A DNA stretch of 64,000 nucleotides, taken from assembly GCF_003691365.1 (NCBI RefSeq), contig NZ_CP033087.1, positions 696,501 through 760,500 on the forward strand, read 5' to 3'. A program made the position numbers and the translations under genes. The stretch is from Commensalibacter melissae (lineage in GTDB: Bacteria; Pseudomonadota; Alphaproteobacteria; Acetobacterales; Acetobacteraceae). Numbering within the stretch: the stretch's first letter is position 1; each line of letters starts with the position of its first letter. The notes beneath the pieces are model-generated. The model saw only the letters and a list, made by a program, of their open reading frames with translations, searched no databases and was not told the DNA's origin. Positions 6,522 through 22,733 of the stretch are shown in pieces.

Positions 6522-7493
6522 TTAAATTATTTTCTTTATTTCATCTTTAGAATGATTTGATCTTAATGCAACAGTACCCTTGGCAATAATATCCCAGGTT
6601 TCCTGCGCAAGATGTTTACGGGTCTTGAAATTTTCTGGATATAAAGGATCATGAAAAATAACGGATGCATGCATATCGGAATATTGACTGAGATTCCATA
6701 AATGTGGTGCCAATTCCATATCACCATACCAGCAGTAAATGGGTCGGGTGAACCTGTTGACAGGTAACATGTCCAAACGATCATATGTAATTGAGATTGG
6801 TTGAATAATGGGTATTTTATAAGTTGTGGTGTTCTTACCATGGGGTTTTGCCAATGCAAAAAAAGAGGACATAAAAGGGTATAAATGCGATCCATCAGAA
6901 GAGGTGCCTTCTGGAAATAAGATTAGGCTATCATTGTTTCTTAATCTTGATTGTAGTTCAATTTGTTCTTTAGCTGTTGAGTGTCGTTGCCTGCTGACAA
7001 AGGAAACGCGGCCAAGTTTACATAAAATACTGATAAGAGGCCAGGTTCCGACCTCCTTTTTTGCAACAAAACATCCAGGCAATAATCCGCCTATAGTGAC
7101 GATATCCAGCCATGAACAATGATTGGCAATGTATAAGATTGGACGATCCTGTCCTTTTTTTGAGTCCAGGGCAATAATCTTGCCGAAGGTATGAAGGCGT
7201 AGCCCCAGTAATTTTCCCACAATATACCAATAATACCTTGCAAAATTGGTTTTTAATTTTCCAGGGAGTTTGACAAAGATTGATTGTACTGGAATAGCCA
7301 TTCCAGTCCATCCCAAAATGGTGAAGATTCTGAGTATTGCCCTAATTTTTTTCAAAAATTTAGGATTATAGGTATTAACTGCATTTTCATTATTGTCAAA
7401 TAATGAATTGAAACCTATACGTGACCTATCTTTAATTTTTTTATTATTTGACTGAAGAATAATATTCTTAATTTTGGATAACATAAATAACAA
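6522..7493 (-). CDS. plsC: Lysophospholipid acyltransferase (PlsC family)
   Basis: A 323-residue acyltransferase. The catalytic HX4D motif is NHCSWLD (H125, D130) and the substrate-binding FPEGTSSDG motif begins at 193. These identify 1-acyl-glycerol-3-phosphate acyltransferases of the PlsC/LPLAT family, which make phosphatidic acid at the inner membrane. Hydrophobic stretches near 53-75 and 145-160 would anchor it. The first 45 residues are basic and asparagine-rich and may include extra sequence; a later start is possible but no better ATG is evident. A plsC-like gene next to miaB is a known alphaproteobacterial arrangement. Confidence 0.85.
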   Translation of the reverse strand: MLFMLSKIKNIILQSNNKKIKDRSRIGFNSLFDNNENAVNTYNPKFLKKIRAILRIFTILGWTGMAIPVQSIFVKLPGKLKTNFARYYWYIVGKLLGLRLHTFGKIIALDSKKGQDRPILYIANHCSWLDIVTIGGLLPGCFVAKKEVGTWPLISILCKLGRVSFVSRQRHSTAKEQIELQSRLRNNDSLILFPEGTSSDGSHLYPFMSSFFALAKPHGKNTTTYKIPIIQPISITYDRLDMLPVNRFTRPIYCWYGDMELAPHLWNLSQYSDMHASVIFHDPLYPENFKTRKHLAQETWDIIAKGTVALRSNHSKDEIKKII

Positions 7494-12700: not shown

Positions 12701-14079
12701 GTATGAATGGTTTAATACCTTTAAATTCAAATGGTAAAATGGATTTGAATCTCGAAGGGAAAATTGATTTGGGATTGGGAAATGCGATTGCGGGTGCCTA
12801 TGGTCAGCAAGTCAAGGGAAACATCAATCTTGCCATGCAAATTGCGGGAAGTTTTATGGAACCAATTGTTAATGGAACTGTACAGCTTTTCAAAGGAAGT
12901 TTTAGAGATTACGCACAAGGGACAAGTATTCAGGATATACAGGCAAAGCTTGTTGGGAAAAAAGATCATATAACCCTTGAATCACTCACTGCCAAGGCGG
13001 GACATGGGGATATATATGCCAATGGACAAATTGGAGTTTTTCAACCGGGTATTCCGGTAAACTTGCATATGAATATGAAAAATGCCCGTCCATTGGTTAG
13101 TGATTTGTTAACAGCCATTCTTGATGGCGATATCGATGTTAGTGGAATGGCAAAATCAAAAATTGATATGAAGGGAACAATTAGGATCAAACATGCCGAG
13201 ATTAATATACCGCATTCTATTTCAAGTTCTGTTGTTCCATTAAAAGTAATTCGTCCAGGTGACAAGATTGAAACAGAAAGCAGGCCAAATCTTCCAGGAC
13301 CCATTATCGGTTTGGATTTAACCATTAAATCTGCCGGTCAAATCTTGGTTCAAGGTTTCGGGCTGTTTACAGATATGGCAGGCGCATTGCATATCACGGG
13401 AACAGCTGATGCGCCTTCAGTTGCGGGAGGAATGAAGATGCAAAACGGTCATATTGATCTTTCAGGAATATCATTGGATTTCACAAGGGGTGTGATCGGG
13501 TTTCAGGGAAGTAATGTAGATCGCAAGATTGATCCCTCTCTGGATTTTGAGGTAAAAAAAACGGTTGAAGGAAACACGGCCAGATTATTGATTACAGGTT
13601 TTGCAAGTTCACCCAAAATCACGTTAACCTCTTCCCCTCCATTGTCACAAGACAGGGTTCTAGCCATTTTATTATTTGGTGTTGATTCACAAAGTCTTTC
13701 GGCAACCCAAATGGCAGAAATAGGATTGGCATTGGCAACGTTGGGTGGACAAAGTGCAGGGATTGATCCCTTGGGTACCGTGAGAAAAAGCCTTGGATTG
13801 GATCGACTTTCTTTAGGAGGGGGGAGTCGTAGCAATGAAAATGGAGGCTCCAATAATGGAGCAAGTGTTGCGGCAGGGAAGTATGTGGCAAAAGGTGTTT
13901 ATATTGGTGCCAAACAATCTACAGGGAATGCAGGTACACAGGCCGAGATGCAGATTGATATCACCAAACACTTGAAAGCTACTGCAACGGTTGGTACGGG
14001 AAAAGACAATTCAAGATTTGTTACCCCAGATAATGATCCAGGTAGTAACGTGGGATTGCTTTATGAGTTTGATTATTAA
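9799..14079 (+). CDS. tamB: Translocation and assembly module protein TamB
   Basis: A 1426-residue protein with a basic cytosolic tail, one transmembrane helix at about 33-56, and a long periplasmic beta-rich body. Its C-terminus has the DUF490/TamB features: LHITGTADAPSVAGGM, GISLDFTRGVIGFQG, and a last residue block resembling an outer-membrane terminus. TamB bridges the envelope with TamA and belongs to the AsmA-like lipid-transfer group. Its ATG overlaps the tamA TAA by one base, so the two are translationally coupled. Length is close to that of other alphaproteobacterial TamB proteins. Confidence 0.92.
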   Translation: MSQSSKEPEKKQSIDKVPRNIKVRKVKYSIIKGILWFLASILILLVAMVFALFIYLNTQSGKEFLSDKIDVWTDHSINVKGIHGNFPNHLIVEEITLKKLPSTDKPWLILKKVKLDWSFFELLYKKLFIQSLLAEEIDIEDLPKSTQSPDASYATSSDLSFLWLFASINHLQINKLHLAQTIFSKTFDLKVNGKLLTSNLLFFLDEFKLNALPDTNLELDGEELNKSTNLSLKLTVKNHQVSKGQLTFLAKSNPDGILERLLKSDQLTPLSFNLSLDGPFDSLNTKMELKSNQTYLRENGYIDLNHSKMNVDLSGHSPAVTLNPQIHWDGWDLDARLTGLLTKPIGQGKFKLVNLVAGKTFLNNLIVSFSGEQNDDLQATNSRQIDRAHIHLIAEGLRVPGKHPMMFAKVPIIADAVYGINEPEQSIDFRVQHDLVKAVGHIFFHPVLKGSIDLALPHLSDIAELTGVRLGGQSVFNLAFTMLEHADNQILFDLDGPIQVNQGLPEIVNMVGSKGHLGIHARIFHKEKPDIYLDNLTISGQNLSIQGNGHLLDQQVRAVVNLNIDNLMALSPLLTGQGKAVLKADGSLEDLGLKFEMATKFQTSSKRDYAIAPSDLKMKAELNHLFALPTLLVSLNGNLDRSPIEMELLASQKKNTDNYYFNLRKLNWRSLNGLADFSISGKNIIPNGNLDIKITRLADFKKLVRQNIEGNLALQIHSSPHTNQKLFVNASSKVNMPNYRFNNLLLTGYIDHPLDNPLINLKAQISDFQLPQAKGNIRLSANGFIDNLKVVANADFPSLMQSKGAFDTALLLDLKKKNVFLQKLNALTKGENIHLTAPAKVDFGEKIAIDHFRLTLAPPNAPLAIIDLAGVIMPALNLNASIQNVTPAILKPFLPQLQAKGTLDAQARLKGTLEKPTGSIQINATNIKMLIGEAASLPVAQLISRTNLMGKNAQTHTHLQMGKKFDLSMNGLIPLNSNGKMDLNLEGKIDLGLGNAIAGAYGQQVKGNINLAMQIAGSFMEPIVNGTVQLFKGSFRDYAQGTSIQDIQAKLVGKKDHITLESLTAKAGHGDIYANGQIGVFQPGIPVNLHMNMKNARPLVSDLLTAILDGDIDVSGMAKSKIDMKGTIRIKHAEINIPHSISSSVVPLKVIRPGDKIETESRPNLPGPIIGLDLTIKSAGQILVQGFGLFTDMAGALHITGTADAPSVAGGMKMQNGHIDLSGISLDFTRGVIGFQGSNVDRKIDPSLDFEVKKTVEGNTARLLITGFASSPKITLTSSPPLSQDRVLAILLFGVDSQSLSATQMAEIGLALATLGGQSAGIDPLGTVRKSLGLDRLSLGGGSRSNENGGSNNGASVAAGKYVAKGVYIGAKQSTGNAGTQAEMQIDITKHLKATATVGTGKDNSRFVTPDNDPGSNVGLLYEFDY

Positions 14080-14160
14080 GGTAAATTAGAAAATATTAAT
14101 TTTAATTTGATATCAAGAATTTATACAACTAATCAGGAATTCGCTTATTTAACATTAAAA

Positions 14161-14210
14161 AAAGACGATTTGTATATGTTTTGAAACAGTATGATTATTC
14201 AAGCGTCTTT
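14161..14210. terminator. Possible bidirectional terminator between tamB and dld
   Basis: AAAGACG and CGTCTTT form a 7-bp inverted repeat flanked by A- and T-tracts on the outer sides, between two convergent genes. The loop is long (about 36 bases), so the call is tentative. Confidence 0.4.
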
Positions 14211-14224
14211 TTTTCTTAAAGCTG

Positions 14225-15955
14225 TTATTCTTTCCAGTTTTTTAATTTGCTAGTTTTTCCAATGCCAGGATTGAAAGCATTGCAAGGATCAAGATCTTTG
14301 TAAAAATTCTTCAAAGGATCTTTGGCTGGGTAAAGATGACCGACATTATGTTCAGCGGGATATTCCGCTCCTCTTTGATCAAGAATTCTCAACATTTTTT
14401 CTTCAAGTGCAAATACATCATATCCTTTTTGAATAATATAATCCTGATGAAAAACGTGACAAAAGAAATGACCGTAATATAATTTATGGAGAATTGGTTC
14501 TTCTATTTCTTCAGGCAAATGTTCCACCCATTCTTTATCATTACGGCGTAGGGCAACATCAATGGCCAGAATATTTTCAACCGTATCCGTATGGACATTC
14601 CTGTAACGAACAGCAGCGCCTGCCACGGCAAAGCGATGCAGGAATGCTTTGCGGCCTTCTTCGGCATTGCATTCAAAAAAGCTTCCCGATGTTTTTTCCT
14701 TAAAATAAGATTTTAAATGGGAACGAACAGGTTCAATTTCTTTTTTGCCCACTTTCAATAGCAAATGATGTTCATATTTTTTTGCATATTCGTTCATTCG
14801 TTCCGGCAAATGCTGAGGAAATAATTTGCTAAAAAACTGCATTGCCTTGTCACTGAAATGTTTTGGGAAAAACGGGATTTTATTTGTAATAAAATCAAAT
14901 TTGTTTTTCAGGGAGAATAATTGTGGAATATGTGCAGTACCCAGACAATTTATAAAAATGAATGTATCTTTTCCGTAAATAGCGGCAATATTGTAAGCAT
15001 CTTGATGGATATACTCACCGGATATGGGAACTATTTTCTTGCTGAGCATATTATATCGAATATTGGTAAGATCATTTGGATCGTTTGTACCGATATAAAA
15101 AACTCTTGTTTCCTTTTCCTGTGGAAATGTATCAAGGCGTACAGCAAAAATTGAGAGTTTACCGGCACATCCAGAGGCTTCATATAAATGATTGGGATCG
15201 GCATTATAACGGGCGGGTGTAGGGGCATCAACTTCGCAGACATGATCCCTATAATGATGGTCTGAACAGCATTTATCAGATTGTTTTATCAATTCATGAT
15301 CAAAATTACCGTGATCAAGTCGTCCCAGAATTTCCTCAGGTGTGTTTCCCAACTCAACGCCAAGATGATTAACAAGTTCTAATTTACCCTCTTTGTTACA
15401 TTGGGCATAAAGGGCCATCTCGGTATAGGCGGGGCCTCGCTGAACCAATGCCCCACCAGAATTATTGCTTATTCCTCCAAGAACTGAAGCACCGATGCAA
15501 GATGATCCGATTACAGAATGAGGATCACGATGATAGGGCCTTAATTTTTGTTCAAGTTCATTTAAAGTCGCCCCGGGAAGACATATTACCTGCTCACCAT
15601 TATTAATCACATAAATTTTTTTCATTTTCATGGTGTTAATAATGACAATGTCACGATCATAATCATTGCCATCGGGGGTAGATCCACCGGTCAATCCAGT
15701 ATTGGCGGCCTGCATGATAATTATTACATTTGATTCTATACAGGCCTTGACAACATTCCACTGATCCAAAATATGCTCTGGCGTTACAATTGCGATTGCT
15801 TTCCCTGATCCATATCGAAAACCATTACAATATAATCCCATTTTGGATGGGTCAGTTATAACGTTTCTGCTTCCAGATATTTTTGTTAATTGAGCAATCA
15901 AATTTTGATTGGATGTATTATGAGAGGCAGAAATCGATTTTTTTTGAAAAAACAT
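14225..15955 (-). CDS. dld: Quinone-dependent D-lactate dehydrogenase
   Basis: A 576-residue FAD enzyme. The N-terminal PCMH-type FAD domain includes IMQAANTGLTGGSTPDGNDY and GASVLGGISNNSGGALVQRGPAY. The C-terminal membrane-binding/catalytic region has CNAEEGRKAFLHRFAVAGAA and PAEHNVGHLYPAKD, matching E. coli Dld (571 residues). It oxidises D-lactate to pyruvate and passes electrons to ubiquinone at the inner membrane, which suits an organism living on fermentation products. It is a single gene, downstream of carD but separated from it by a clear terminator. Confidence 0.94.
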   Translation of the reverse strand: MFFQKKSISASHNTSNQNLIAQLTKISGSRNVITDPSKMGLYCNGFRYGSGKAIAIVTPEHILDQWNVVKACIESNVIIIMQAANTGLTGGSTPDGNDYDRDIVIINTMKMKKIYVINNGEQVICLPGATLNELEQKLRPYHRDPHSVIGSSCIGASVLGGISNNSGGALVQRGPAYTEMALYAQCNKEGKLELVNHLGVELGNTPEEILGRLDHGNFDHELIKQSDKCCSDHHYRDHVCEVDAPTPARYNADPNHLYEASGCAGKLSIFAVRLDTFPQEKETRVFYIGTNDPNDLTNIRYNMLSKKIVPISGEYIHQDAYNIAAIYGKDTFIFINCLGTAHIPQLFSLKNKFDFITNKIPFFPKHFSDKAMQFFSKLFPQHLPERMNEYAKKYEHHLLLKVGKKEIEPVRSHLKSYFKEKTSGSFFECNAEEGRKAFLHRFAVAGAAVRYRNVHTDTVENILAIDVALRRNDKEWVEHLPEEIEEPILHKLYYGHFFCHVFHQDYIIQKGYDVFALEEKMLRILDQRGAEYPAEHNVGHLYPAKDPLKNFYKDLDPCNAFNPGIGKTSKLKNWKE

Positions 15956-16107
15956 TTTGTATACGCTTTTGACAATCTAAAAATTATTCAGGTTCTAATA
16001 ATTTTTATAAATAGTTAATAAGCCTTTTATCATACTTGTTTAATATCATTTGTAAAGACTAACAAAATGTCATTATATATTCATTTATTACAAATAAAGA
16101 CATAAAA

Positions 16108-16128
16108 AAAGGAGAGTAACTCTCCTTT
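16108..16128 (-). terminator. Intrinsic terminator of carD
   Basis: A perfect 9-bp stem (AAAGGAGAG / CTCTCCTTT) with a TAA loop. On the minus strand it is followed by a run of T, giving a canonical rho-independent terminator about 30 bases past the carD stop. Confidence 0.8.
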
Positions 16129-16159
16129 CGTTGTAATTGTAATGATCAATTGATAAATT

Positions 16160-16747
16160 CTAAGCTGTTTTCATCACGTTTGTTAATTCGTTGAGAACGT
16201 CTTCTGGTTTTTTTGATTCCAAAACGGCCACCTCGGTTACAAAACGGTCTTGAGCCGCTTCAAATAGTTTTCTTTCGCTAAAACTGCCATCAAGACTGTC
16301 AGCGTTTCTGCGTAGATCCCTTAAAACTTCAGCAATCTGCATCAGATCACCAGAATTGATTTTTTCCTGATAAACCAAAGCCCGTCTTGCCCACATACCT
16401 TTGCTGGTTTGCGGCTTGCTTTTAATGATTGACATGGCTTTTCCGACAATTTCACGGGAAGCAATTTTGCGTAATCCAGCTTTTTTTGCTTTATCTAAAG
16501 GGATACGCAGGGTCATCTGATTATCTGGAAAAGAGATCTGGATCATTTCCAGTTTCGTGCCTGCAATCTCTTCCACGCCAATACGATCAATTCGGCCTAC
16601 ACCATGTGCAGCATAGACAATGGCATCGCCTTCTTGGAAAGGAAAAGAGGTTTTACTATTGGATTGTTGTGCGGCGGTTTCTGCGACGGCTGCTTGAGCC
16701 ATTTCGTCGGTTACACCACCTTTGGAAGAATTTTTCAATACACTCAT
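16160..16747 (-). CDS. CarD-family transcriptional regulator
   Basis: A 195-residue protein. A low-complexity N-terminal tail of about 40 residues precedes the CarD_CdnL_TRCF RNA-polymerase interacting domain (FQEGDAIVYAAHGVGRIDRI, then LRIPLDKAKKAGLRKI). A helical DNA-binding half follows, with WARRALVYQEKINSGDLMQIAEVLRDL. CarD proteins bind RNA polymerase beta and stabilise open complexes at many promoters, including rRNA promoters. It is monocistronic. Its promoter lies so close to the ATG that the mRNA is probably leaderless. Confidence 0.92.
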   Translation of the reverse strand: MSVLKNSSKGGVTDEMAQAAVAETAAQQSNSKTSFPFQEGDAIVYAAHGVGRIDRIGVEEIAGTKLEMIQISFPDNQMTLRIPLDKAKKAGLRKIASREIVGKAMSIIKSKPQTSKGMWARRALVYQEKINSGDLMQIAEVLRDLRRNADSLDGSFSERKLFEAAQDRFVTEVAVLESKKPEDVLNELTNVMKTA

Positions 16748-16754
16748 TTAATAT

Positions 16755-16783
16755 ACTATACCATATTCAGGATAAATTGTCAT
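16755..16783 (-). promoter_or_regulatory. Sigma70-type promoter of carD, nearly leaderless
   Basis: On the minus strand ATGACA (16783-16778) is followed after 17 bases by TATAGT (16760-16755). Each hexamer differs from consensus at one position and the spacing is ideal. The -10 box ends only 7 bases before the ATG, so transcription should begin at or next to the start codon. No Shine-Dalgarno sequence precedes the ATG. Confidence 0.6.
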
Positions 16784-16844
16784 TTGATATTTTAGAAAAG
16801 GCAAAATTTTATATAATGTGAATATATAGGTATTTTATTTTAAT

Positions 16845-17726
16845 TTACCATTGAATTCCGTTAATGGAAGGAATAGGGCGTTGAGAATATTGATTGATTT
16901 GTTCAAGCAAATCGATCTCGATGCTGCGTGACATTGTTAACATGGGCAAGGAATGCGGACTTTCATCAAAGGGATCTTGCAAATCATTTCCAATTCGGTC
17001 CAGAGCCAAAAATAAAAAACCCACAAGTGCGGACCCTAATGGTGTGATCCACCCAAGTGTATCCACCATTGAAAAAGGAAGAATGATGCAGATAACTTCA
17101 CTTAGTAAACGGGGCAGGGTGGAAAACTGGATTGATAAGGGTGTATTTTTAATTCTTTCCAAGGCACCTTGTGCATTGGCCAAGTCAGATAAAATTCTGT
17201 CGATTTGAGAGTGAAGGGCACCGTCAATGTTTTTTTGACGGCTTTCCTGGGTTACCATATAACCGATCTGAACGAGAATGCCATTAGGCTGGTTGCGCTG
17301 ATTTTTAATATAGGTTTGAATGGAATGGGGCAATATTTTTTTAACATTATAGCTGGTCAGGGAATTTTTACCTCTTAAATGATAGGATAGACTGTATGCA
17401 TATCCGGCCATGGCATAAATAAGCTCGGGTTTGCTATCGAGAATACTCATGCATTGCCTGGCAAATGATCGACAGTTATTTGTAACTGACCCCCAATGTA
17501 TACGTGCCTCCCACCATCGATTATATGCCGTATTGTTTCTGAAATTCATAAAAAGGACGAGCACAGATCCAATCAGGGCGGTTGGTAATGCGGATTGATC
17601 AAACCAGTGCAGATTAAAAATTTTATATCCAATGACGACTAGCATGTCCCAAATAAATAAAATGAGTAAAGGTTTAAAACTTGTCTGTATAAGAAAAAGA
17701 AGTCCACGTTTCGGGTTTACAATCAT
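16845..17726 (-). CDS. Bestrophin-like (RFP-TM) chloride channel family protein
   Basis: A 293-residue membrane protein with MIVNPKRGLLFLIQTSFKPLL at the start. The family-typical FRNNTAYNRWWEARIHWGSVTNNCRSFARQ region follows at about 62-91 and TPLGSALVGFLFLALDRIGNDLQDPFD at about 235-262. These identify the bestrophin/UPF0187 (YneE) family. Bacterial members form pentameric ion channels in the inner membrane; ion selectivity varies and is not predictable here. It is a single gene with no partner apparent. Confidence 0.88.
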   Translation of the reverse strand: MIVNPKRGLLFLIQTSFKPLLILFIWDMLVVIGYKIFNLHWFDQSALPTALIGSVLVLFMNFRNNTAYNRWWEARIHWGSVTNNCRSFARQCMSILDSKPELIYAMAGYAYSLSYHLRGKNSLTSYNVKKILPHSIQTYIKNQRNQPNGILVQIGYMVTQESRQKNIDGALHSQIDRILSDLANAQGALERIKNTPLSIQFSTLPRLLSEVICIILPFSMVDTLGWITPLGSALVGFLFLALDRIGNDLQDPFDESPHSLPMLTMSRSIEIDLLEQINQYSQRPIPSINGIQW

Positions 17727-18133
17727 AGTTTAATTTTCATCATTATAATGGATAGTTATTGATTTTACTAAACAAACTAATGGAAAACTATGGTTTATTT
17801 TTGTTGATTGTATTTTTTCTTTAAAAATTGATAAGATTAAAAAAATAGCTGATTTACTTTCAAGCGCATAAAATCACCAAAAACTAGACAAAAAACGAGT
17901 ATAAACACTTTGAATTGATTCAAGTTATCTTATAAAATTATGCTGATTTTAAATCTATATAATTATAATACTAAAACATGTTTAATTTGTGTTTTAGATG
18001 CTAAATTAAGCTACTTTTGTATGTAGAATTCAAACCGGATATATATTGTAGTAAAAAAATTAGTATAAAATCAAGTTTGTTTAAAAATTCTCCATTCATA
18101 AGGGGATTTTTTATTAAAGGGTTAATTATTTAA
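17727..18133. other. 407-bp AT-rich gap between bestrophin gene and type III R-M operon
   Basis: The gap separates divergent genes and marks the left edge of the restriction-modification locus. I see no ORF, RNA gene, integrase site or obvious direct repeat. An imperfect hairpin-like element followed by a T-run lies at about 18076-18115, just before the mod start. Promoters for both flanking genes must lie here, but no box pair stands out in this AT-rich stretch. Confidence 0.4.
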
Positions 18134-20077
18134 ATGAAGAATTCTTTGTCTCCGCAACAAGAAAAATTAGAACAACTAAAACAATTACTGCCAGAGGTTT
18201 TTACGGAAGGTAGGGTTGATTGGGAAAAGCTAAAATTATCTTTGGGAGAAGATATTAATATTGCAAATGAACGTTATGTTTTGAATTGGGCGGGAAAGAG
18301 TAATGCTTATAAAGTATTGCAAGAACCGACATCTAAAACACTCTCCCCAGACAAAAATGAATCTGTTGATTTTGATAAGACAGAGAATTTATTCATTGAG
18401 GGCGATAACCTAGAAGCTTTGAAAATACTTCAAAAAAGTTATTTTGGCAAAGTTAAGATGATTTATATTGATCCTCCGTATAACACGGGTAATGACTCTT
18501 TTATTTACCCGGACCGTTTCAAAGAAAATCTTGGAGATTATCAAAAAAATGTGGGGGATAAAGACGATGATGGATATTTAATACAAGATTCTATTTTTAA
18601 GAAAAACAGGAAAGAAAATGGGCAATATCATAGTAATTGGCTCAATATGATGATGCCGAGATTATATCTTGCCAAAAATTTACTTCGGAAAGATGGCGTT
18701 ATTTTTATTTCTATTGATGATAACGAAGTGTATAATTTGCGATTATTAATGAATGAAATATTCGGTGAAGAGAATTTTGTTGGATTAATTACTGTACAAA
18801 GTAATCCTAGAGGTTCTCAAGCAAGTAAATATATTTCGAATGTACATGAGTACATATTAATTTTCTCTAGGCAAAAAGAACTTGTAAATATTAGAGGGGA
18901 AGAAAAATCAGATACTAGTTTAAAGGAGTATTCAGAAATTGATGAAAACGGTCATAAATATAGACTGTTGGGACTCAGACAAAGAGGAGGAGCTTGGAAA
19001 AAAGAAGATAGACCTTCATTACATTATCCTATTTATATACAACCAGATACGGGTCGAGTATCTATAGAAGAATCTAGTTTATATACAATTAAAGTAATAC
19101 CTAAACGTCCTACAGGTGAATTGGGTCGTTGGACTTGGAGTAAGAAAAAACTTTCCTCAGAGTTAGGTCAGGTTATAGGAAAACCTATTAATAGAAAAGA
19201 AAATACTGATGTATGGGATATTTTTAGAAAAGATTATCTTTTAGATATTAATGGTAGGCAAAAGACTACTAAAGTAAAAACGATTTGGATGGAAAAAGAA
19301 AATAATTATCAAAATGCAAAAAATGAAATTAAATTTTTATTTGATAATTCTGAAATGTTTAGCTTTCCAAAACCCATTTATATTTTAAAAAAATTAATAT
19401 TAATGCTTGATTTGAATTACCAGGATATCATCCTTGATTTTTTTGCGGGTAGTGGAACGACAGCGCATGCGGTGATGCAATTGAATGCTGAGGATGGCGG
19501 TAGTCGAAAATGTATCTCTATTCAATTACCAGAAATATGTGATGAAAAGTCAGAGGCCTTTAAAGCTGGATATAAGACCATTGCTGATATTGCCAAGGAA
19601 CGCATTCGAAGAGCAGGTAAAAAAATCAAGGAAGACAATAAGGATAAAGAAAATATTGATCAGCTTGATATTGGATTCAAAGTCTTAAAAGTTTCTGATA
19701 GCAACTTTAGAGAATGGCGAACCGATATATCCAGTGAAAAACTTGATGAACAATTAGATCTTCACGTTGATCCCATTGCGGAAGATGCTTCAACAGAAAA
19801 TATGGTTTACGAATTAATGCTTAAAAATGGCAAGGATTTAAATAGTCATATCAAGCATCATAATCATATCTATTCTATATCCGACCAAGAAAATCATGAT
19901 GAAAACATCCTCGTTTTGCTTCTTGAAAAGGTGAATGAAGATGTTATTGAGAATGTTCTTCAAGAAAATCCCAATAAGGTTATTGCCCTGGATAAACTTT
20001 TCAAGAATAACGATCAATTAAAGACCAATACCGCATTACAAATGCAAGATGCAGATATCAAGTTCGAAACAATCTAA
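18134..20077 (+). CDS. mod: Type III restriction-modification DNA methyltransferase (Mod)
   Basis: A 647-residue N6-adenine methyltransferase of the beta class. The catalytic motif IV DPPYNTG lies at residues 113-119, before the SAM-binding motif I FAGSGTTAHAV at 437-447. The roughly 280 residues between them hold the target-recognition domain. This order and length are those of type III Mod subunits such as EcoP1/EcoP15. Mod recognises an asymmetric site and methylates one strand; with Res it forms the restriction complex. The downstream res start is 10 bases after the mod stop. I see no long simple repeat that would make it phase-variable. The target-recognition segment is notably AT-rich, suggesting transfer. 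Confidence 0.93.
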   Translation: MKNSLSPQQEKLEQLKQLLPEVFTEGRVDWEKLKLSLGEDINIANERYVLNWAGKSNAYKVLQEPTSKTLSPDKNESVDFDKTENLFIEGDNLEALKILQKSYFGKVKMIYIDPPYNTGNDSFIYPDRFKENLGDYQKNVGDKDDDGYLIQDSIFKKNRKENGQYHSNWLNMMMPRLYLAKNLLRKDGVIFISIDDNEVYNLRLLMNEIFGEENFVGLITVQSNPRGSQASKYISNVHEYILIFSRQKELVNIRGEEKSDTSLKEYSEIDENGHKYRLLGLRQRGGAWKKEDRPSLHYPIYIQPDTGRVSIEESSLYTIKVIPKRPTGELGRWTWSKKKLSSELGQVIGKPINRKENTDVWDIFRKDYLLDINGRQKTTKVKTIWMEKENNYQNAKNEIKFLFDNSEMFSFPKPIYILKKLILMLDLNYQDIILDFFAGSGTTAHAVMQLNAEDGGSRKCISIQLPEICDEKSEAFKAGYKTIADIAKERIRRAGKKIKEDNKDKENIDQLDIGFKVLKVSDSNFREWRTDISSEKLDEQLDLHVDPIAEDASTENMVYELMLKNGKDLNSHIKHHNHIYSISDQENHDENILVLLLEKVNEDVIENVLQENPNKVIALDKLFKNNDQLKTNTALQMQDADIKFETI

Positions 20078-20087
20078 GGGTTTGGTT

Positions 20088-22733
20088 ATGAAGTTAGAAT
20101 TTGAATCAAATTTAGAATATCAAAAAACTGCGATATCTGCTGTGGTTGAGTTGTTTAAAGGGCAATCTAAGCATACAGCATGGTTTAACTTATATTCAAA
20201 TGGAAATAATGATCCAATTGCTCCGGTAAAAAATAATTTGGATATTGATCAAGCACAAATCTTTCAAAATTTACAGGAAATTCAAGAAAAGAATGGTGTT
20301 GCAAAATCTCGGTCGTTAGACAGTATGGACTTTTCTGTGGAAATGGAAACAGGCACAGGAAAGACCTATGTTTATTTAAGAACGATATATGAACTCAATG
20401 CCCACTATGGGTTTAGTAAATTCATTATTGTTGTACCTTCTATAGCTATTCGTGAAGGCGTTCAGAAAAGTCTTGAAATAACACGTGAACATTTCCAGAA
20501 TATTTATGCAAGAGAGCCTCTGAATTATACTATTTATAATAGTAAGCGACCTGGTGATATCAAAAATTTTGCCAAAAGTAATAATATAGAAATCATCGTT
20601 ATGAACATTGATTCATTTGCTAAAGATCAGAATGTTATCAATAAAATCAATGAAACAGGTCATAAGCTTATTGAATATATTCAGGAAACCTCTCCTGTTG
20701 TGATTATTGATGAGCCTCAGAATATGGAGACAGAAAAGCGGAAGGAAGCGATTAAAAACTTAAACGGTTTATGTCATCTACGATATTCCGCAACCCATAA
20801 GCATCAATATAATTGCGTCTATCAGCTTGATCCGGTAAAGGCTTATGATCTGGGATTGGTTAAGCAAATTGAAGTTGATTCCATTTACAGTGATGCAGCT
20901 TTTAATGATGCTTATGTTTTTGTTGGTGATTTTAAGACAGCCAAAACCAGTTGTTCTGTTAAACTTACTATTCATGTGAATGATAAGGTTGGTGTAAAGA
21001 AAAAGACCATTTCTGCAAAGGTTGGTGATGATTTATTTGAATTATCCAATCACAGAGAAGTTTATAAAGATGGATATATTCTTAATGAGATGAATGTACA
21101 AGATGAAAGCATTAAATTTTCTAATGGTCATACTCTCTATAAGGGGCAGGAAAACGGTAATGATGCAAAAGATGCTATTAAAAGATGCCAAATTAAAAAA
21201 ACGATCATAGAGCATTTGGCTAAAGAAGCCAAATTAAGCAAAGATGGTATAAAGGTCTTATCCTTATTTTTTATAGATAAAGTATCTAATTATCGAGACT
21301 ATGAAGAGAATCAAGCAGTAAAAGGTAAGTATGCACTTTGGTTTGAGGAAATTTATAGAAAGGTATTCAAGGAATGTTATAAAAAAGATATTTCAGGTGA
21401 GGAACTTGATCGATTGCATAATGGTTATTTCTCCCAAGATAAAAAAGGAATATTAAAAGATACCAAGGGAAATACAAAAGATGATGATGATACCTATAGT
21501 TTGATTATGAAAGACAAAGAGAAGCTTTTAGATATTAACGAGCCGTTACGGTTTATATTTTCTCATTCTGCATTAAGAGAAGGTTGGGACAATCCTAATG
21601 TTTTTCAAATATGTACTCTGAATGAAACAACCTCTGAAATGAAGAAACGCCAGGAAATAGGGCGAGGATTGAGATTGGCCGTTGATAAAGATGGGAAAAG
21701 AATACGGGGTAAAAATATTAATCGTCTGACGGTTATTGCCAATGAATCTTATGATGATTTCGCAAAAGCTTTACAAAGTGAGATTGAAGAAGATTGTGGC
21801 GTTAATTTTCAAGGCCGGATTAAAGACAAAGCACAAAGAACGAAGGTTATTTATAAAAAAGATTTTCAGGCAAACCCGTTATTTTTAGCAATATGGAATA
21901 AGATTAAATATAAAACAACCTATCGTGTTCATTATGATACCAATCAATTAATAGACAAAGTTGTCGAAGCTATCAAAATTTTACCTAAAATAACAGAACC
22001 TATTCTTTATTCGGAAAAGGTATTTTTGAATATTGATGAAGAAGGTGTCCAGACTAATTATTTGGCAAGTGAGCGTAATAAAACTCAAATAATTGCTAAA
22101 AATATTCCTGATATATTTGCTTATATTGAAAATAAAACTCAACTGACGAGGACAACAATTTTAGAGATATTGAAAAAATCTGAACGAATTGGTGATATTT
22201 CCAAAAATCCTCAAGATTTTCTTGATAAGGTTTGCGATGTTATTTCTAGAGAAATGCAGGAATTAATGATTGATGGTATTCGGTATCAAAAAGTTGGGCT
22301 TACTGAATATGAAATGAAGCTGTTTGATAGTAAAGAACTTGAAATCTATATGAATGACAATTCTTTTCAGGTCACAAATACTGGCAAAACCATTTATGAA
22401 AATATAGTTCCTTTAGATTCAGAAACAGAAAATCAGTTTGCTAAAGAGTGTGAGACTAGTGAACAAGTTAAATATTATTTTAAACTTCCAAATTGGTTCA
22501 AAATAAAAACGCCTATTGGAAATTATAACCCTGATTGGGCATTAGTGTTTGAAAATGATGCAAAGATATATTTTGTTGTGGAGACTAAAAATACAGGAAA
22601 TGATGTTGTTGATTTATCAAAACTATCTAAAAGTGAGCTATTGAAAATTAAATGTGGCAAGGCACATTTTAAAATTATGGATGATGTTAGGTATGAGGTT
22701 GTAACTAAAGTTTCAGATCTTAGTCATATTTAA
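20088..22733 (+). CDS. res: Type III restriction endonuclease subunit (Res)
   Basis: An 881-residue superfamily 2 helicase/nuclease. Counting from the ATG at 20088, Walker A ETGTGKT lies at about 87-93, the DEAD-like box DEPQ at about 208-211 and helicase motif VI in QEIGRGLRLAVD. A C-terminal PD-(D/E)xK nuclease has P815-D816 and E832-T-K834. It uses ATP hydrolysis with Mod to cleave DNA between two inversely oriented unmethylated sites. An upstream in-frame ATG at 20049 lies inside mod; MKLEFESNLEYQ at 20088 fits Res N-termini better. All key motifs are present, so the enzyme appears functional. Confidence 0.92.
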   Translation: MKLEFESNLEYQKTAISAVVELFKGQSKHTAWFNLYSNGNNDPIAPVKNNLDIDQAQIFQNLQEIQEKNGVAKSRSLDSMDFSVEMETGTGKTYVYLRTIYELNAHYGFSKFIIVVPSIAIREGVQKSLEITREHFQNIYAREPLNYTIYNSKRPGDIKNFAKSNNIEIIVMNIDSFAKDQNVINKINETGHKLIEYIQETSPVVIIDEPQNMETEKRKEAIKNLNGLCHLRYSATHKHQYNCVYQLDPVKAYDLGLVKQIEVDSIYSDAAFNDAYVFVGDFKTAKTSCSVKLTIHVNDKVGVKKKTISAKVGDDLFELSNHREVYKDGYILNEMNVQDESIKFSNGHTLYKGQENGNDAKDAIKRCQIKKTIIEHLAKEAKLSKDGIKVLSLFFIDKVSNYRDYEENQAVKGKYALWFEEIYRKVFKECYKKDISGEELDRLHNGYFSQDKKGILKDTKGNTKDDDDTYSLIMKDKEKLLDINEPLRFIFSHSALREGWDNPNVFQICTLNETTSEMKKRQEIGRGLRLAVDKDGKRIRGKNINRLTVIANESYDDFAKALQSEIEEDCGVNFQGRIKDKAQRTKVIYKKDFQANPLFLAIWNKIKYKTTYRVHYDTNQLIDKVVEAIKILPKITEPILYSEKVFLNIDEEGVQTNYLASERNKTQIIAKNIPDIFAYIENKTQLTRTTILEILKKSERIGDISKNPQDFLDKVCDVISREMQELMIDGIRYQKVGLTEYEMKLFDSKELEIYMNDNSFQVTNTGKTIYENIVPLDSETENQFAKECETSEQVKYYFKLPNWFKIKTPIGNYNPDWALVFENDAKIYFVVETKNTGNDVVDLSKLSKSELLKIKCGKAHFKIMDDVRYEVVTKVSDLSHI

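Follow-up and report, generated by a model that had tools for sequence, protein, structure and literature searches.

The carD gene of Commensalibacter melissae is predicted to be transcribed from its own promoter into an mRNA that begins at, or directly beside, its start codon, and the same promoter placement recurs in front of carD across the acetic acid bacteria compared here. The gene lies on the minus strand of the window, the stretch of 64,000 nucleotides that was analysed, which covers positions 696501-760500 of the 2.02-Mb genome. We consider it quite likely that carD is leaderless from its own promoter, that the arrangement has been selected across the clade and that it replaced a start led by a Shine-Dalgarno (SD) sequence, probably once. 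In the mechanism proposed, carD would be transcribed from its own sigma-70 promoter with an extended -10 element, whose geometry would make transcription begin at the A of the start codon or no more than about 2 nt away from it. The resulting mRNA, leaderless in the sense of a leader of at most 3 nt, would be translated without an SD sequence through recognition of its 5'-AUG. Selection would hold this arrangement across the acetic acid bacteria, in whose ancestor the leaderless start would have taken over from an SD-led one at the same ATG. The actual 5' end, the mode of translation, the exact start codon and the single origin of the arrangement are the parts of this account that we infer.

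The gene (16160..16747, minus strand) codes for a CdnL-type protein of 195 amino acids that matches solved CarD chains and carries two domains scoring above cut-off, PF02559 (49.3 bits) and PF21095 (69.2 bits). Its residue W119 is invariant in a 29-row CarD alignment and pairs with the tryptophan of the solved CarD chains shown; the conserved CarD tryptophan wedges the upstream edge of the transcription bubble (PMC5324124). The window gene is a true carD. Residues 1-35 form an N-terminal extension with a motif, KGG(V/M)TDxMARxAAxxTA, that is largely conserved in the 29 rows. Solved CarD chains align from residue 32-37 or later and leave this extension uncovered. In the structure model (mean pLDDT 72.7, built on a 14-row alignment) it is mostly of low confidence, except for a helix at residues 14-29 that is predicted with modest confidence.

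The elements of the putative promoter can be read directly on the minus strand. The -35 element ATGACA, with its GACA core (16778..16783), is a near-consensus match and is separated by a 17-nt spacer (16761-16777) from the -10 hexamer TATAGT (16755..16760). The seven nucleotides ATATTAA (16748..16754) then lead to the ATG start codon (16745-16747). The initial annotation had placed this ATGACA-N17-TATAGT site 7 nt from the carD ATG; the site is real and its coordinates were exact. What had been overlooked is the TG of an extended -10 (16763-16762), part of a TGG at 16761..16763 immediately upstream of the hexamer. A consensus scan of the window gives the carD promoter 10 of 12 consensus matches plus the TG. 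The earlier observation that the ATG has no SD sequence also holds, with no match of at least 4 nt in front of it. Taken on its own this is weak evidence, because just 17 of the 55 long ORFs of the window have an SD of at least 4 nt at their first possible start. One further ORF among these 55 (6522-7493, minus strand) has an extended -10 located 4-10 nt from a possible start within its first 50 codons, in that case a TTG; besides carD it is the only such case.

In the single genome the evidence for this promoter placement is moderate. The pattern GACA-17-TGnTAnnnT at a gap of 5-8 nt is found at the carD ATG alone among 2,592 window ATGs tested on both strands, and when 200,000 Markov-1 sequences with the composition of this intergenic region were generated, 71 contained an equally good site at that gap. 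A looser pattern yields 16 matches genome-wide. Only the one in front of carD starts a long ORF that is not already open upstream, and one other falls within a long ORF whose frame is open from farther upstream. The reversed control of this looser pattern gives 9 matches, a number not much lower, as would be expected if a promoter-like string had arisen near the carD ATG by chance in AT-rich intergenic DNA. Such a coincidence is nevertheless extremely improbable, since the geometry is kept in 44 of 46 upstream sequences from loci with a GC content of 0.32 to 0.65 and occurs in 0/59 control rows. It is this comparison across species that turns the case for the predicted promoter into a strong one.

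The comparison draws on carD genes found in 9/9 genomes of the genus, its own included, and in 142/150 genomes of the family. Upstream sequences were inspected from 69 of these 142 genomes, 30 by the returned locus and 39 by place, and 17 further carD loci were taken from a public genome set. The acetic acid bacteria contribute 56 loci, none of which was dropped (0/56), and these reduce to 46 distinct upstreams that are related rather than independent; the group is a label based on named loci (Commensalibacter, Bombella, Acetobacter) and on similarity. One distant locus from a metagenome-assembled genome (MAG), L019, was left out of the upstream counts. All 56 rows start with ATG, having been picked through an ATG pattern.

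The distance between the -10 element and the ATG, which the initial annotation had singled out for comparison among relatives, proved to be conserved: TGnTA is present at a gap of 6-9 nt in 46/46 distinct upstreams, with 7 nt in 25 rows, 6 in 13, 8 in 7 and 9 in one. GACA lies exactly 17 nt ahead of the -10 hexamer in 44/46, which gives the full GACA-17-TGnTA geometry in as many rows. The labelled rows cover 22 genus labels and the full geometry is found in 21 of them, the exception being g30. Mean pairwise identity is 0.25-0.27 upstream of the -35, 0.75 in the GACA block and 0.31 over positions 3-6 of the hexamer, whose first two bases, TA, are constant. With a fixed, untrained consensus score, the best site falls at a gap of 5-8 nt in 41.0 of the 46 rows (tie-weighted); the Markov-1 null for this count has a mean of 1.5 and a maximum of 6.6 in 300 runs. 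An SD is lacking in 38 of the 46 rows, and an SD-like match of 4-5 nt is found in the other 8.

The conserved block has some traits of its own. The -35 element reads AAGACA in 24/46 rows and GAGACA in 6, rather than TTGACA, and a T two bases ahead of the TG is kept in 44/46; the extended -10 may compensate for the conserved departure of the -35 from TTGACA. In the two g30 upstreams (L058 and L059) GACA is gone and TGnTA is retained. An AAGGA within the -10 of L058 could double as an SD, 7 nt before the ATG. The g30 sequences are possibly a reversal or an intermediate.

Outside this clade carD presents a different picture. In the carD genes of other Acetobacteraceae the full geometry is found in 0/36 rows, and an SD of at least 5 nt precedes some candidate start in 19/36, counted with seven rows whose frame overran the fetched stretch, two of which offered no testable start. 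A class-wide sample of 40 carD loci, taken from 95 non-family genomes with a match and made up mostly of the best-scoring ones, has the full geometry in 0/40 and TGnTA alone in 1/40 (L176, at a TTG). In the same sample an SD of at least 4 nt precedes some start in 32/40, including in the denominator one locus without a start to test and two that overran the stretch. Two other genes of the window, compared as controls within the Acetobacteraceae, likewise have the full geometry in 0/30 (AhpC/TSA) and 0/29 rows (OmpA-family); they are not matched by species, acetic acid bacteria accounting for 12/30 and 18/29 of the rows, and control row L163 was omitted owing to its start codon. The predicted leaderless arrangement of carD thus looks specific to acetic acid bacteria. 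With a gap of 6-9 nt throughout and a full block seen in this clade alone, the comparison strongly supports the leaderless start that the initial annotation had predicted from one genome.

The most similar carD that departs from the geometry, that of L060 (60% identity over residues 1-195), has GGAGG 6 nt ahead of the homologous ATG, so that a leaderless start seems to have replaced an SD-led one specifically in this lineage. A single switch at the same ATG would be the simplest history. If this is true, the gene of a general regulator of RNA polymerase went over to another way of initiating translation within one bacterial family, and the new mode was retained over a range of 32-65% GC. Leaderless and SD-led carD genes sharing the same ATG would then provide a clean comparative system for why genes turn leaderless, and the same comparison could ask whether CarD dosage is tied to the state of the ribosomes.

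The distance from the end of a -10 element to the transcription start is usually 6-8 nt. Transcription of carD is predicted to start at the last one or two A before the ATG, or on the first base of the start codon itself. A pyrimidine stands at position -1 of the ATG in 35/46 rows, and transcription starts mapped in Gluconobacter preferentially have C/T at -1, A/G at +1 and C/T at +2 (PMC5756330), so that YATG with its A as +1 fits well. Two A precede the ATG in the window, where a leader of 1-2 nt is therefore as likely as none; the prediction for the window gene is best given as a leader of 0-2 nt. The prior for any one gene being leaderless is low, given that only 62 of 1344 assigned Gluconobacter starts are of this type (PMC5756330). 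Transcription might also begin 3-8 nt upstream of the ATG and yield a short leader devoid of SD, as in 24 Gluconobacter transcripts with leaders of 4-8 nt (PMC5756330). The gap of 8-9 nt in 8/46 rows and the two A directly before the window's ATG would suit such a start, which we regard as unlikely because a gap of 6-7 nt in 38/46 rows, together with the prevalent pyrimidine at -1, points to the A of the ATG.

The leaderless reading depends on the ATG at 16745-16747 being the start codon. In the seven codons ahead of Met16, pairwise differences amount to 510 at the first, 570 at the second and 3395 at the third codon position, as counted in 41 of the 46 rows, five being skipped as lacking the block. 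These codons largely keep K-G-G-V/M-T-D and differ mainly at third positions, which indicates that they are translated and that the start lies at or before this block. Met16 was considered as the carD start and is disfavoured by this coding pattern. In 23/46 rows a further ATG or TTG follows the chosen ATG at a distance of 2-6 codons. An in-frame ATG, GTG or TTG lies upstream in 12/46 rows, the window row having none. The first ATG is preferred because the geometry relative to it is unchanged in the 23 rows that offer no later start ahead of the block; in some species the start may lie a few codons later.

A translation start at one of these later ATG or TTG codons, or at Met16 behind the SD-like AAAGGTGG, would leave a leader of about 6-50 nt. 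Besides the 23 rows offering a downstream ATG or TTG, it could invoke a GGTG 11 nt ahead of the window's Met16 ATG and the retention of Met16 in at least 90% of the 29 rows. However, the GG run follows from the codons ahead of Met16, which are themselves translated, the rows devoid of a later start keep the geometry unchanged, and the window's only candidate among the nearby codons is a TTG at codon 4 without SD. We judge a later start very unlikely and retain the first ATG as the start of carD.

Leaderless genes are already known, and a clade-wide carD case would add another. Those of alphaproteobacteria resemble what is predicted for carD here in having an ATG start and a transcription start at or beside it; they were found by mapping of transcription start sites (TSS), whereas carD is called here from comparative sequence. 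In Zymomonas, 119 of 2,675 TSS-gene pairs are reported as leaderless (PMC7566282), and for Sinorhizobium meliloti a share of roughly 6% of genes is quoted in PMC5756330. The term 'CarD' is absent from the main text of both mapping papers (PMC5756330 and PMC7566282). Among the open-access papers listed on CarD or CdnL in connection with leaderless transcripts or acetic acid bacteria, none reports a leaderless carD in its title or the opening of its abstract. The cdnL gene of Caulobacter crescentus and its S. meliloti homologue belong to the same family as carD here and likewise have their own sigma-70-type promoter. Their leaders are given as 233 and 266 nt (PMC5324124), in contrast to the 0-2 nt predicted in the window; if this prediction is true, long carD leaders are not general to alphaproteobacteria.

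The carD promoter of acetic acid bacteria may, like that of Rhodobacter sphaeroides, be one that CarD itself acts on. The R. sphaeroides protein is reported to repress its own promoter (PMC10232725), and a T at the last -10 position is linked there to the CarD response (PMC8407463). By analogy, CarD may act on its own promoter in acetic acid bacteria as well. The response-linked T is present in the window and is not conserved in the clade. Since it occupies the last -10 position in only 23/46 rows, self-control may differ between species if the R. sphaeroides rule applies. CarD activates rRNA transcription where it has been studied. A more elaborate reading, to which we give little credence, is that the fusion of promoter and start codon forms a feedback loop in which CarD acts on its own promoter and its output tracks the ribosome pool. 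Translation of the leaderless message would then fall preferentially to 70S ribosomes, or to ribosomes with a particular initiation-factor status, and T or another base at the end of the -10 would give self-control of opposite sign in different species.

The initial annotation had further suggested that a leaderless carD would escape the normal control of initiation and could stay on under stress, an idea that the present comparison does not specifically support. A reporter in Mycobacterium tuberculosis, which belongs to another phylum than the acetic acid bacteria, kept up leaderless translation better than SD-dependent translation under starvation and nitric oxide exposure (PMC8485053). Mycobacterial CarD is, like the window protein, a global regulator that binds RNA polymerase and has the same two domains. 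Its level is set in starvation by the Clp protease and antisense RNA, which lower it, and it rises under genotoxic stress according to a section heading of the same paper (PMC8820732). Because mycobacterial CarD drops in starvation, staying on under stress cannot be assumed for CarD.

The surroundings of carD bear on whether all of its transcripts would be leaderless. A bestrophin-like gene (PF25539; 16845..17726) lies upstream on the same minus strand and ends 97 nt before carD, making it a possible source of read-through. The promoter next to the ATG could thus be functional while a good share of the transcripts carry a leader, acquired through this read-through or from an upstream start. 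No terminator is called in the gap between the two genes, in 29/46 rows an ORF upstream on the carD strand carries a loosely shared C-terminal motif, and a weak promoter site with 9 of 12 matches is found at 16864-16837. Precedents exist, as 13 of 61 leaderless mRNAs of Gluconobacter oxydans also have an upstream start (PMC5756330), a situation reported for about half of the leaderless cases in Zymomonas (n = 52; PMC7566282). On the other hand, the sequence farther upstream than the -35 is not shared from one species to the next, there is no second position at which best-scoring sites recur, and the window's ATG is not preceded by an SD. A mixture of this kind is possible, if on balance doubtful, and we favour a carD message that is leaderless from its own promoter. 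Downstream, a hairpin followed by a T run, resembling an intrinsic terminator by consensus match only (16107..16129, minus strand), lies some 30 nt downstream of the carD stop codon and suggests that the transcript ends there. The interval 13900-18200 gives no Rfam match at gathering score. Beyond the bestrophin-like gene, a lower-GC stretch (0.33) at 18134-22733 on the plus strand probably encodes a type III restriction-modification pair, composed of a methylase and a Res subunit.
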